NCBI RefSeq assembly: GCF_022436705.1
Contig: NZ_JAKUHT010000029.1
Span: 1 to 64,000, forward strand
Origin: Nocardioides sp. CFH 31398
Lineage (GTDB): Bacteria > Actinomycetota > Actinomycetes > Propionibacteriales > Nocardioidaceae
DNA length: 64,000 nt
Direction: 5' to 3'
This document shows positions 2,412-7,105 of the stretch, one piece after another. The position numbers and the translations under genes are program-made. The notes under the pieces were generated by a model that was not told where the DNA came from, made no database searches, and saw only the letters and a program-made list of their open reading frames with translations. The stretch's first letter is position 1. The number at the start of each line of letters is the position of its first letter.

Positions 2412-3249
2412 GGATGTCCGTGAGGAGGATGCCGCGGGCGCCGACGCCGTACAGCTCGTCCATGAGGCGCTGGGCCCCGGCCCGCGGGACCATCGCGCGG
2501 ACCGCGACCCAGCCCTCCCGCTGGAGCGGGGAGATGGTCGGGCCCTCGATGCCGGGCGTCAGCGCGGTCGCGGGCTCGAGGTGCTCGCGGGCGATGTCGT
2601 AGTCCATCATCACGTAGCTCCGGGCGAGCAGGACGCCGTCCACGCGACGGCGGAAGACGTCGAACCCGTCCGGCATCTCGCCGCCGCGGCGCGTGACCAG
2701 CACGGCGCGCGACGTCATCACCGGCTCGCCGAAGATCTCCAGGCCGGCGGCGCGCAGGGTGCTGCCGGTCTCGACCACGTCGGCGACGACATCGGCGACG
2801 CCGAGCTGGATGCTGGTCTCGACCGCACCGTCCAGCCGGGTCACGGACGCCTCGATGCCCTCGCGCTCCAGGAACGAGGTCACGATCCCGACGTACGAGG
2901 TGGCGATGCGTGCGCCGGCCAGGTCCGACCACTCGCGGTAGGCGCCGGGGCGCGCCGCGAAGTGGAAGCGGGAGCCGCCGAACCCGAGGTCCATGACCTC
3001 GTCGGCGTCCGCGCCGGAGTCCAGCAGCAGGTCGCGGCCGGTGATGCCGAGGTCGAGGGTCCCCTCCCCGACGTACAGGGCGATGTCACGGGGGCGCAGG
3101 TAGAAGAACTCGACGCCGTTCTCGTGGTCGGTGAGCGCCAGCTCCTTGCTGTCGCGGCGCTGGCGGTAGCCGGACTCGCGCAGGATCGCGGACGACGCCT
3201 CCGACAGCGCCCCCTTGTTGGGGACGGCGATGCGCAGCGGCCGGCTCAC
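2395..3249 (-). CDS. hisG: ATP phosphoribosyltransferase (long form), first step of histidine biosynthesis
   Basis: HisG joins ATP and PRPP to make phosphoribosyl-ATP. The 284-residue protein starts [12 protein letters not shown] and contains [13 protein letters not shown], both typical of HisG. Its length, with an extra C-terminal domain of about 75 residues ending near [11 protein letters not shown], marks the long hexameric form, which carries its own histidine-binding regulatory domain and needs no HisZ. The GTG start at 3249 was chosen because it overlaps the hisE stop as GTGA and gives a normal family N-terminus; the open frame runs further upstream but there only mirrors hisE in another frame. 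Feedback inhibition by histidine is expected from the family. Confidence 0.95.
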
Positions 3250-3509
3250 AGGTGCGCGTACACGTCGTCGGGGCTGATGCCGACGGCGAGCATCAGCACC
3301 TGGGCGTGGTAGAGCAGCTGGCTGATCTCCTCGGCGGCGCGCTCGGCGCCCTCGTGCTCGGCCGCCATCCAGGACTCGGCGGCCTCCTCGACCAGCTTCT
3401 TGCCGATGGCGTGCACGCCGGCGTCCAGCGCAGCCACGGTGCCCGAGCCGGCGGGGCGCTCGACGGCCTTGGTCGACAGCTCCGACCAGAGCTCCTCGAA
3501 GGTCTTCAC
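3246..3509 (-). CDS. hisE: Phosphoribosyl-ATP diphosphatase, second step of histidine biosynthesis
   Basis: HisE hydrolyses phosphoribosyl-ATP to phosphoribosyl-AMP. The 87-residue product is all-alpha and has the MazG-like metal-binding helices: [10 protein letters not shown] around residues 37-46 and [11 protein letters not shown] around 58-68. This length is normal for a stand-alone HisE. The GTG at 3509 gives the family N-terminus KTFEELW. A TAGGCT box ends 8 bases before it, so the transcript is probably almost leaderless. hisG overlaps its stop by four bases. Upstream lies a 32-bp repeat array instead of a gene. Confidence 0.93.
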
Positions 3510-3517
3510 GAGGGTCC

Positions 3518-3523
3518 AGCCTA
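3518..3523 (-). promoter_or_regulatory. -10 box of the hisE-hisG promoter
   Basis: On the minus strand TAGGCT lies 8 bases upstream of the hisE GTG. It fits the actinobacterial TANNNT -10 consensus and would start transcription only 1-3 bases before the start codon. No convincing -35 is seen. The box lies between the repeat array and the gene. Confidence 0.45.
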
Positions 3524-3545
3524 GGCGGGGCGACGCAGGCACGCC

Positions 3546-3840
3546 GAGTCGGCCCGAACGCACGCCCCACGGACCCCGAGTCGGCCCGAACGCACGCCCC
3601 ACGGACCCCGAGTCGGCCCGAACGCACGCCTCCACGGACTCGAGTCGCCACGTCCGGACGGCTCGTGGTCTCGTCGGCGCCTCGCCCGGCTGCTCAGACG
3701 TGCCGACTCGACGCCGTACAGCTGCGCAGACGTGCCGACTCGACGCCATACAGCTGCGCAGACGTGCCGACTCGACGCCGTACAGCTGCGCAGACGTGCC
3801 GACTCGACGCCCCTCAGCTGCGCAGACGTGCCGACTCGGC
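3546..3840. repeat. Array 1 of a 32-bp intergenic repeat family, two subtypes in opposite orientation
   Basis: Three near-identical units beginning GAGTCGGCCCGAACGCACGC start at 3546, 3578 and 3610, and a degenerate fourth core follows at 3642, all 32 bases apart. After a short non-repeated stretch, five units of CAGACGTGCCGACTCGACGC type start at 3695, 3727, 3759, 3791 and 3823, again every 32 bases. The second block is the reverse orientation of the same core (minus strand GAGTCGGCACGTCTGCGCAG). The array fills the whole interval between the hisE start and the regulator gene, and its last unit runs into that gene's 3' end. There are no unique spacers, so it is not a CRISPR. Confidence 0.9.
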
Positions 3841-4152
3841 GATGTCTCCCCCGGCGATCTCGGCGAGGGCCGCGAGGTGGCCCTCGAGCGCTCGGGAGCC
3901 CTCCCGGGTGAGTCCGACCCAGGTGAGACGGCGGGCGTCGCCGCGGCCGGGCGAGCCCTCCTTGCGCAGCCGGACGTAGCCCCGGTCGACGAGGACCTTG
4001 AGGTTCTTCGAGAGGTGGGCGTCGCTGAGCCCCAGGGTGTCGCGGACGACGCCGAACTCCACCTCGTCGAGCCGTCGCAGCACCCCGCAGATGCGCAGAC
4101 GGACGGCGGAGTGCACCACCTCGTCGAACGCCGGCTCGACGGGAGCGCTCAT
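3814..4152 (-). CDS. Winged-helix transcriptional regulator (ArsR/PadR-like fold)
   Basis: A 112-residue DNA-binding protein. Residues about 15-75 form a winged helix: recognition helix near [23 protein letters not shown], then a wing with [14 protein letters not shown]. The rest is a short dimerisation helix. The last codons (AESARLRS, then TGA) lie in a 32-bp repeat unit, so the C-terminus comes from repeat DNA. It overlaps the preceding membrane-protein gene as ATGA and is its operon partner. A double dyad in the shared promoter makes it a likely autorepressor; the ligand or signal is unknown, and the membrane partner may be the output. Confidence 0.8.
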
Positions 4153-4616
4153 CGCCGGCCGGCGGCGAGGTCATGCCGCAGGGCCTCGTCGTAGCGGCGC
4201 CCGAGGACGACGACCGCGACCAGCACCAGCCCCGCCGGCACGAGCGCCCACACGGGCGCGAGCACGCCGAGCAGCGCTCCCCCGACGATGCCGAGGACGA
4301 TCGCGGCCATCACCCACCGGAACATCCGCCGGCTCCGGTCGCCCGCGGGCTGGCTCACCCGGACGCCGTACCGGCGCCGGTACGCCACGGGCAGCAGCGC
4401 GAGGACGACGACGCAGAGCGCCACGACGGCCACCGTCGCCGACGGGGGCAGGGCCGGGCTCAGCGCCACGGCGGCCACCACCGCCCCCAGGACGGGGTGG
4501 TACCACCACGGCGTCACGACCCGGTCGGCCAGACGGGCGTTGTCGTCGTCCAGCCCGCTGAGCGCCTCGCGAGCCGCCTCGGCGGTGAGTCGCTGGCCGT
4601 CCGAATTGGTTGCCAT
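4149..4616 (-). CDS. Small membrane protein paired with the winged-helix regulator
   Basis: A 155-residue protein without a recognised domain. The N-terminal 35 residues are charged and soluble. Four hydrophobic segments follow in two pairs: about 42-57 and 60-77 (TVAVVALCVVVLALLPVAY), then about 100-117 and 120-137 (WALVPAGLVLVAVVVLG), with a basic loop between. It ends in an Arg-rich cytoplasmic tail. The ATG lies inside an operator-like dyad and directly after a -10 box, so the mRNA is probably leaderless. Genes of this kind (short membrane protein plus wHTH regulator) often belong to stress or efflux responses, but nothing here proves that. Confidence 0.6.
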   Translation of the reverse strand: MATNSDGQRLTAEAAREALSGLDDDNARLADRVVTPWWYHPVLGAVVAAVALSPALPPSATVAVVALCVVVLALLPVAYRRRYGVRVSQPAGDRSRRMFRWVMAAIVLGIVGGALLGVLAPVWALVPAGLVLVAVVVLGRRYDEALRHDLAAGRR

Positions 4617-4653
4617 GTCGGCAACACTATGACTTACCGTCTCGGCAAGTCAA
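4610..4653 (-). promoter_or_regulatory. Leaderless promoter with two repressor-type dyads for the regulator operon
   Basis: On the minus strand a -35 TTGACT (4648-4653) and a -10 TAGTGT (4624-4629) are separated by 18 bases, and the ATG (4614-4616) follows after 7 bases, so transcription should begin at the start codon. Two dyads of the form TTRCC-N5-GGCAA lie at 4610-4624 (covering the start site and ATG) and 4634-4648 (in the spacer, touching the -35), with centres 24 bases apart. Binding of the adjacent winged-helix protein there would block RNA polymerase. Its identity as the binder is inferred. Confidence 0.7.
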
Positions 4654-4677
4654 TGCTCGCCCGGGGACGGTGAGGGG

Positions 4678-5145
4678 TCAGACCCGCAGGGCTCGGACCG
4701 TCGCGAGGGCCGCGCTGGCGGCCTCGTGGCCCTTGTCCTCGCTGCTCCCCGGGAGCCCGGCGCGGTCGAGCGCCTGCTCGTCGGTGTCGCAGGTGAGGAC
4801 GCCGAAGCCGACGGGGACGGCGTGATCGACCGCCACCCGCGTCAGGCCGTCGGTGGCCGCCGAGCAGACGTAGTCGAAGTGCGGCGTCCCGCCCCGGACG
4901 ACGACGCCCAGCGCGACGATCGCGTCGAACCCGCGCTGCGCGAGGGCGGCCGCCGCCACCGGCAGCTCGAACGTGCCGGGCACCCGGACGACGGTCGGCT
5001 CGCTCACCCGGTGCTCGGCCAGGGCGCGGTGCGCGCCGTCCAGCAGCCCGTCCATGACCTCGGTGTGCCAGCTGGCCGCGACGACGGCGACCCTCAGGTC
5101 GCTCGCGTCGTACGCCGTGGTGTCGGGGGCTCCGTGGCCGCTCAT
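4678..5145 (-). CDS. ribH: 6,7-dimethyl-8-ribityllumazine synthase
   Basis: RibH condenses the ribityl-pyrimidinedione with dihydroxybutanone phosphate to give lumazine, the precursor of riboflavin. The 155-residue protein has the family features in order: ASWHTE (about 24-29), the phosphate/ribityl-binding VPGTFELP (55-62), [16 protein letters not shown] with the catalytic His (about 78-93), and [16 protein letters not shown] near the end. Length is standard. Its ATG overlaps the ribBA stop (ATGA), and it is the last gene of the rib operon governed by the upstream FMN riboswitch. Confidence 0.96.
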
Positions 5146-6413
5146 CGTGGGGTCTCCTCCAGGTCCTTCTCGAGGTCGTCGAGGTCGTCGAGGTCGGGCA
5201 GTCCGGGCAGCACGTGGCCCATCCGGTCGCGCTTGGTCAGCAGGTAGGCGAGGTTGTGGTCGTTCGGGCGCGGCGTGAGCGGCACCCGCTCGGCCACGGG
5301 AACGCCGTACTCGGTCAGCGACTCGGTCTTGTCCGGGTTGTTGGTCAGCAGCCGCACGGAGGTGACGCCGAGGTCCTTGAGGATCTGCGTGGCGGTCCCG
5401 TAGTGGCGTGCGTCGGCGGGTAGCCCGAGGTCGAGGTTCGCGTCGACGGTGTCGCGGCCGCCGTCCTGCAGCTGGTAGGCCTGCAGCTTCGCCACGAGCC
5501 CGATCCCGCGTCCCTCGTGGCCGCGCAGGTAGACCACCACGCCGCGCCCCGCGTCGACGATGCGCTCCATCGCCTCCTCGAGCTGCGGCCCGCAGTCGCA
5601 GCGGTCCGAGCCGAAGACGTCGCCGGTGAGGCACTCGGAGTGCACGCGGACGAGCACGGGCTCGTCCCCGGCCGCCTCCAGGTCGCCGTGGACCAGCGCG
5701 ACGTGCTCGGAGTCGTCGAGGTCGACGCGGTAGCCGTACGCCGTGAAGTCGCCGTACCGGGTCGGCAGGCGGGTGGTCGCCACGCGCTGGGCGTGCCGCT
5801 CGGTGCGACGGCGGTACCGGACGAGCTGCTCGATGGAGATCATCGACAGCCCGTGGGTGTCGGCGAACTCGCGCAGCTCCGGCCCGCGCTTCATCGTGCC
5901 GTCGTCGTTGACGATCTCCACCAGCACGCCCGCCGGCGTCAGCCCGGCGAGGCGGGCCAGGTCGACGGAGGCCTCGGTGTGGCCGCGGCGCACGAGGACG
6001 CCGCCCTCGCGGTAGCGCAGCGGGAAGACGTGCCCGGGTCGCGTCAGCTCCCAGGGCTCGGTCGCGGAGTCGGCGAGGGTCCGCGCGGTGTGGGCGCGGT
6101 CGGCGGCCGAGATGCCGGTGGTGACGCCGTCTCGGGCGTCGACGGAGATCGTGTACGCCGTCCGCAGCGGGTCGCGGTTGTGCGGCGTCATCAGCGGGAT
6201 CTCGAGGCGGTCGAGGGTGCGGGCCTCCAGGGGCACACAGATCACGCCGCTGGAGTGGCGGATCGTGAAGGCCATCAGCTCGGGCGTCGCGCGGGAGGCC
6301 GCGAAGACGAGGTCGCCCTCGTTCTCGCGGTCCTCGTCGTCGACGACGACGACGGCCTTGCCGGCCGCCACGTCGGCGATCGCCTGCTCGACGTCGTCCA
6401 GGCGCACGCTCAC
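5142..6413 (-). CDS. ribBA: Bifunctional 3,4-dihydroxy-2-butanone 4-phosphate synthase / GTP cyclohydrolase II
   Basis: One 423-residue polypeptide makes both precursors of lumazine. The N-terminal RibB domain (about 1-205) shows [14 protein letters not shown], the acidic metal loop, and [13 protein letters not shown]. The C-terminal RibA domain (about 210-400) has the zinc cysteines in [18 protein letters not shown] and the GTP-binding [10 protein letters not shown]. Both sets of catalytic residues are present, so both activities are expected. The C-terminus ends in an acidic tail. It lies between pnuC-like and ribH with overlapping ends. Confidence 0.96.
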
Positions 6414-7105
6414 GCGGGGACCTCCTCGGTCGGTCGGGTGGTGTCAGTCGGTCCGGGGAGGCGCCGCGACGCGCGGACCCAGGCCACGAGCCCGGCGACG
6501 CAGAACACCCCGTAGAACAGGTACATGAAGGCCGTCGGGTAGTAGCCGGCCTGGACGAGGGTGGTCACCCCGACGACGTCGACGGCGATCCAGACCAGCC
6601 AGAACTCGACGTACCCCTTGGCCATCCCCCAGGTCGCCAGCAGCGAGCCGGCGAGGATCCAGGCCTCGGTGACCGGGCCCCAGGACCCGATCAGCAGCAG
6701 CAGGACGTACGCCGCGGCGTAGCCGAGGGCCGCGAGCCCGAGCAGCCGCAGCCGCTCGCCGGCGGAGGCCCACCGCGGGGTCAGCGCGCCGCCGTCCGCG
6801 GCGTCGGCGCCGTGGGTCCAGCGCCAGAACCCGTAGACCCCGACGGCGACGAACATGAGCTGGCGGCCCGCCTGCCCCCACAGCGGTTCCCCGGCGGTGT
6901 GGCCGCCGAGCTCGCCGGTGACGAACACGGTGAAGAGCAGGACGTTGCCGACCAGCCCGACCGGCCAGGCCCACACGGTGCGACGCATGCCGAGCACGGC
7001 GCTGGCCAGGCCGAACAGGTTGCCGACGACCTCGCGCACGGCGAGGGCGCCGCCGGCGACGGGGATCACCCCGTGCAGCAGCCACTGGATCGCGGTCTCG
7101 ATCAC
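6410..7105 (-). CDS. PnuC-family vitamin transporter, probably for riboflavin (PnuX-like)
   Basis: A 231-residue inner-membrane protein with about seven hydrophobic segments and the aromatic WPVGLVGN and GFWRWTHG motifs typical of the PnuC family of facilitative vitamin transporters. PnuC members carry nicotinamide riboside, thiamine or riboflavin. Because this copy sits between ribE and ribBA behind an FMN riboswitch, riboflavin is the likely substrate, as for PnuX of corynebacteria; that assignment rests on context. It overlaps both neighbours by four bases and is therefore translationally coupled. Confidence 0.8.

Follow-up and report, generated by a model that had tools for sequence, protein, structure and literature searches.

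How is the small regulator/membrane-protein gene pair of Nocardioides sp. CFH 31398 controlled, and by which protein? The pair is located in what is here called the window, i.e. the whole 64,000-nucleotide stretch that was analyzed (contig NZ_JAKUHT010000029.1, positions 1 to 64,000). An initial annotation had described a promoter, formed by TTGACT, an 18-base spacer, TAGTGT and an ATG seven bases later, together with two dyads 24 bases apart, one over the start codon and one in the spacer. Both were confirmed by direct reading of the sequence: the minus-strand layout is TTGACT-N18-TAGTGT-N7-ATG, from 4653 to 4614, and the dyad starts are 24 bp apart.

4648..4653, minus strand: -35 hexamer TTGACT, read from the sequence, starting 37 nt before the ATG
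4634..4648, minus strand: candidate operator dyad 1, TTGCC-GAGAC-GGTAA (TTGCCGAGACGGTAA on the coding strand), over the spacer and the last base of the -35
4624..4629, minus strand: -10 hexamer TAGTGT, read from the sequence
4610..4624, minus strand: candidate operator dyad 2, TTGCC-GACAT-GGCAA (TTGCCGACATGGCAA on the coding strand), over the predicted transcription start and the start codon
4616-4614, minus strand: start codon ATG, opening the membrane-protein gene
4149..4616, minus strand: membrane-protein gene, 155 aa, first gene under the promoter
3814..4152, minus strand: HTH_34 winged-helix regulator gene, 112 aa, second gene, its start overlapping the membrane-gene stop by 4 bp

The regulator/membrane-protein pair is thus present under the promoter as annotated, but with the membrane-protein gene first and the regulator gene second. 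Its upstream neighbors are presumably riboflavin-synthesis genes and its downstream neighbors hisG/hisE-like genes, as assigned by eye from the translations. Two tandem-repeat arrays with a 32-bp unit are found just downstream of the regulator gene, slightly overlapping its end (3544-3647 and 3689-3838, with 3.2 and 4.7 copies and 94-95% matches); the first unit has GAGTCGGC and the second its complement GCCGACTC.

A consensus promoter scan of positions 3000-6500 returned a single promoter-like site, namely the present one, but parsed it with a spacer of 16 and CATAGT (4626-4631, overlapping TAGTGT) rather than with a spacer of 18 and TAGTGT. The motif TTRCC-N5-GGCAA, for which 100 shuffled versions of the window gave an expectation of 0.00, was found in the window at dyads 1 and 2 only. 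Dyad 1, with its GGTAA half, is an imperfect palindrome on the coding strand, and extends to an imperfect palindrome of 23 bp (4630-4652). The proposed scan of the 4.42-Mb genome for pairs of the motif gave one pair only, i.e. that of the window, but also three further single sites. Of the five places in total only the window's two are near each other, so that the single motif is not unique in this genome, while the pair of the exact motif is.

Paired dyads in front of homologous gene pairs

Upstream of homologues of the regulator a general operator motif was found, consisting of two TTKCC-N5-GGMAA dyads, often within ACTTTCC-N5-GGAAAGT; the window's dyad 1 matches it imperfectly. With a score of at least 18 of 20 as the criterion for a dyad pair (a threshold set post hoc, after preliminary dyad results), 145 out of 227 unique regulator-homologue loci had such a pair upstream, compared to none of the 227 for the reversed motif and two for the region downstream of the regulator. 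The 227 loci are what remained of 232 rows after removal of one without upstream sequence and four duplicates, ten twice-represented loci (L036-L040, L042, L060, L166, L172 and L175) having been left out beforehand.

Ordered by profile score from best to worst, pairs were found in 101/109, 36/68, 7/21 and 1/29 loci, the first figure being that of the closest homologues (profile E<1e-35). The 82 loci lacking a pair consequently include few of the closest homologues and nearly all of the most remote. Divided by source, the figures were 24/31 for the family search (best matches only, i.e. 30, L006-L035), 54/124 for the class profile search (13 of its 14 weakest rows left out) and 67/72 for close relatives (80 of 130 relatives kept), the last being biased upward because peptides of close homologues had served to find these relatives. 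When profile A1 was built, dyads were already known at some of its loci.

Within the genus the regulator is patchily distributed, with matches in 22 of 215 genomes at E<=1e-15 (own genome included). Of the family Nocardioidaceae, 43 out of 100 genomes have a match at E<=0.001, and the profile matched in 100 of 296 class genomes at E<=1e-10. A set picked by close similarity extends the dyad pairs to records of Proteobacteria, Planctomycetes, Gemmatimonadetes and others. Among the records with a name, those of Pseudoalteromonas, Sphingomonas aracearum, Cellulomonas, Frankia and Rhodococcus have pairs, as do metagenome-assembled genomes, whose assignments may be wrong, of Gemmatimonadales, Pirellulales, Verrucomicrobiia, Latescibacterota and Neomarinimicrobiota.

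Three or more hydrophobic segments were counted in the open reading frame following the operator at 134 of the 145 paired loci, and at 143 this frame ends between -40 and +25 nt from the regulator start; the choice of frames favored this, preference having been given to those ending near the regulator. A reverse search did not involve the regulator at all: the 43-base pattern TTGCC-N5-GGAAA-N13-TTTCC-N3-ATG-GAAA was searched in 388 class genomes and gave a single match in each of 13 of them, while its backward control gave none in the same genomes. In all 13 the embedded ATG opens a frame of 142-188 codons, directly followed by a regulator homologue; hydrophobic segments number three or more in 12 of the 13 frames and two in the remaining one. 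The pattern is narrow, missing most homologue-bearing genomes, the window's included. The wide footprint (145/227 vs. 0 and 2) and the reverse search (13/13) together lend strong support to the double operator. Similar paired sites precede related gene pairs in bacteria only remotely akin to one another, and thus mark a widespread regulatory unit. The unit is apparently undescribed in the open-licence literature, where no paper was found on an operator or partner of the HTH_34 (PF13601) family, nor any related paper by means of the operator motif strings.

In at least 62 of the 145 paired loci the membrane-protein frame starts at the ATG within the second dyad, a lower bound since L066, at least, escaped the count. 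A TTG hexamer, i.e. the putative -35, starts 36 or 37 nt upstream of this ATG in 51 of the 62, which is what a leaderless promoter would require; in the remaining 11 it is found elsewhere or is absent. Where the dyads are spaced 28-29 bp apart the -35 is TTGCCA, the dyad's own first half, so that the distance follows from the dyad spacing itself. The independent part of the observation is therefore the 24-bp class, to which the window belongs with its TTGACT touching the dyad, and in which the TTG is kept at -36/-37 in all six loci. The leaderless start that had been proposed for the window is supported by this spacing, above all by these six loci.

Which dyad resembles a -35 box depends on the spacing. 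At 28-29 bp the first dyad begins with TTG in at least 53 of 63 loci and the second with TTTCC in 59 of 63, while at 23 bp the two are swapped (of 34 loci, 31 have TTTCC at the beginning of the first dyad and 29 have TTG at that of the second). Our reading is that the dyad located on the -35 looks as if bent towards the -35 sequence, one half-site thereby doubling as the presumed -35 box. Spacings range from 23 to 33 bp with no fixed helical phase kept, which argues against a fixed cooperative geometry. In a subclass spaced 26 bp apart (L058, L063, L074, L089, L098, L105, L198, L218 and L221) most first dyads have TTGAC, with an additional (G)GAAAGTAC half-site in front of them, which hints at a third half-site or operator.

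These positions also bear on the direction of control. That the regulator activates the operon, or both activates and represses it, would be in line with the 23-bp class, in which one dyad is situated upstream of the presumed -35. We nevertheless consider this very unlikely for the window, where each of the two dyads extends into the core promoter or the start site.

Half-site specificity and other sites

The window's candidate GGCAA half-sites, and with them TTRCC-N5-GGCAA, are a local variant of the general ACTTTCC-N5-GGAAAGT, in which the usual half is GGAAA. At position 45 of the recognition helix most regulators have Ser, together with GGAAA half-sites, and the window's regulator has Ala. 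A base other than A in third position of a right half-site was found in 5 of 7 loci with Ala or Tyr at position 45, compared to 11 of the 153 having Ser (Fisher p 1e-4). This p value overstates the evidence, since the seven loci amount to roughly two lineages and it was the window's case that had prompted the comparison.

Among the matches in the 215 genus genomes only that of G641 (locus L251) is close, with 84% identity, followed by G621 with 55%. Between the window and L251 no base differs in the -35, the -10 or dyad 2. Dyad 1 is retained with one change per half (TTGCC to TTGCA and GGTAA to GGCAA) and a different center, and the flanks differ as well. L251 also carries a repeated CGAGTCGGC element upstream of its promoter.

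Within the genome under study both HTH_34 genes are preceded by a dyad pair. The second gene (contig C7, locus L066, G000:C7:53500-57000) has its own pair with GGAAA right halves, which opens a 151-aa membrane-like protein. Two paralogues with different half-sites in one genome could serve to test the shift in recognition specificity. At L066 the stretch from the dyad pair to the regulator holds two similar membrane-protein-like frames in tandem, the first being that of 151 aa, an arrangement that resembles a duplication.

The three other single TTGCC-N5-GGCAA sites of the genome, at L001, L004 and L005, raise the possibility that the window's GGCAA dyads are bound by another regulator. Two of them are the following:

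L004 and L005, position 1501-1515: single TTGCC-N5-GGCAA dyads, upstream of genes

The genes in question, named by eye, we take to encode a FAD-oxidoreductase-like and a methyltransferase-like protein; they are neighbors in several relatives. The motif is present at 7 of 30 loci around relatives of the L005 gene and at 9 of 30 around those of the L004 gene (own genome in each), compared to a background of 3 in 331,294 bases (loci L066-L165). Because the genes are neighbors there, five of the nine L004 sites are the same as among the seven of L005, which leaves 11 distinct sites, two of them in the own genome. The relatives' sites are found at L295, L296, L302, L304, L307, L308, L323, L326 and L339, and in the nine genomes bearing them (G530, G560, G523, G640, G484, G479, G470, G624 and G569) the window's regulator finds no match at E<=1e-15. 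The L004 and L005 sites thus probably belong to the regulator of another, conserved regulon. The L001 motif is present in the own copy only, i.e. in one of seven loci.

This recurrence of single dyads lends some substance to the idea of a foreign regulator at the window, but the genome's three other sites are single and lack the ACTT/AAGT extension, the paired arrangement tracks the HTH_34 gene, and half-site changes accompany changes in the recognition helix. We therefore hold binding of the window's dyads by another regulator to be highly improbable. TTRCC-N5-GGCAA, proposed as a searchable operator motif, is a local variant, and as two of the three other sites look like another regulon's, a scan for single sites would mislead.

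The gene products and a model of control

The regulator is an HTH_34 protein (PF13601; 51.4 bits against a curated cut-off of 27), a family also matched by all 58 aligned regulator homologues at E<=0.001. Scores remained below the curated cut-offs for the ArsR/SmtB metalloregulator model NF033788 (29.4 bits, cut-off 55) and for MarR_2 PF12802 (21.7 bits, cut-off 27), and neither MarR PF01047 nor PadR matched at E<=0.001, although four of the 58 homologues do match PadR. The AlphaFold model is confident (pLDDT 91.0). The nearest solved structure is 1ub9, i.e. PH1061 of Pyrococcus horikoshii, as found by profile (1.9e-8), Foldseek (3.7e-5) and VIA-align (Z 14.6, rmsd 3.1, 98 aligned); the VIA-align list is filled by MarR-like folds, so that no weight attaches to other families being missing from it.

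The membrane protein matches no known family. The window's copy has no Pfam match and a single NCBIfam match (TIGR03750), far below its cut-off. Two Pfam and two NCBIfam models match one member each of the 49 aligned membrane proteins, no family recurring, and EccD, ThrE and NF000600, each weak and in one of the 49, were rejected as its family. Conserved positions are few (L19, P36 and G84), with a mean column identity of 22%. The AlphaFold model (pLDDT 90.3) has an N-terminal helix (12-32) and four further helices (39-55, 58-83, 93-119 and 121-152). No PDB fold was found at E<=0.001, the best matches, helical bundles with E about 1, being rejected.

Established at the level of sequence are the anatomy of promoter and dyads, the order of the genes and the conserved association between paired dyads and the regulator/membrane-protein pair. 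As for an autorepressor, a candidate operator is situated over the regulator's own promoter, so far as the bases themselves tell. We consider it highly likely that the membrane-protein and regulator genes form a two-gene operon, transcribed from one promoter as a presumably leaderless mRNA and autorepressed by the HTH_34 regulator through the two dyads. The regulator, probably as dimers, would bind the two tandem dyads and thereby cover the -35 and spacer as well as the start site and start codon, so that RNA polymerase would be blocked and the regulator's own operon repressed. The linkage of paired dyads with the regulator family thus favors autoregulation by the adjacent winged-helix protein, as first annotated, but the wording "clear autorepression switch" exceeds the evidence.

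Far more tentatively, the membrane protein may sense a membrane-linked signal or sequester the regulator, and so release the promoter. The tight pairing of the two genes suggests such membrane-linked sensing by analogy with the HAAS-PadR-like winged-helix dyads (PMC11237479), in which a small winged-helix regulator gene likewise adjoins its partner gene, the partners are mostly membrane-linked, and an alternative to two-component systems is proposed. The window also has its regulator gene next to the partner gene. It differs in that its regulator is HTH_34 and not PadR, and in that none of the 49 membrane proteins has a direct HAAS/DUF1700 model match at E<=0.001. Similarly, the Listeria PadR repressors LstR and LltR (PMC6624303) act chiefly on their own operons, in which membrane proteins are encoded. 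Self-regulation is predicted for the window too, but by a regulator of another family.

Control of the regulator by the membrane protein through its N-terminal cytosolic helix, in the manner of a HAAS-PadR-like dyad, is accordingly a serious yet tentative candidate, which we rate as somewhat short of even. The HAAS-PadR precedent (PMC11237479), the adjacency of frame and regulator (143/145) and the hydrophobic segments (134/145) speak for it, as does the modeled N-terminal helix preceding the membrane part, but the cytosolic side of this helix is an assumption, HAAS/DUF1700 is not matched, and the membrane proteins share few positions (22% mean column identity). A plain ligand-bound autorepressor is about as likely. 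Here the regulator itself would bind a small molecule, the membrane protein being only an effector, e.g. in transport or envelope protection. Many MarR/ArsR-type proteins bind ligands directly, and the regulator's fold matches such proteins. However, the model of this short regulator shows no additional ligand domain, and the membrane protein lacks any transporter family or fold match beyond the weak ThrE match in one of 49 members; we thus regard this alternative, too, as possible at rather less than even strength.

A toxin-antitoxin-like module, with a toxic membrane protein controlled by the regulator, would fit two small overlapping genes which are apparently autoregulated and patchy in occurrence (22/215 genus genomes). 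Yet the membrane protein has no toxin family match, and a four-helix protein of 155 aa is large for a membrane toxin. Of the explanations this is the remotest, with hardly any probability.

At only slightly less than even confidence, the HTH_34 regulator and the unclassified four-helix membrane protein may constitute a phylum-spanning, kinase-free membrane signaling pair whose promoter is built into its operator, one dyad serving as the -35 box and the other, in many actinobacteria, holding the leaderless start codon. The operator would thereby fix the first residues of the protein, usually Met-Glu. The window's copy would be a branch with a shifted recognition code (GGCAA for GGAAA), insulated from the GGAAA paralogue in the same genome. 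In any case the HTH_34 family gains a concrete, testable candidate operator, present in several phyla, and a link to a membrane protein without convincing Pfam or NCBIfam match. The locus is also a clean case of operator, promoter and predicted leaderless start codon on the same bases. Lastly, the wing of the window's regulator is four residues longer than in 15 of the 17 other regulators of alignment A1.
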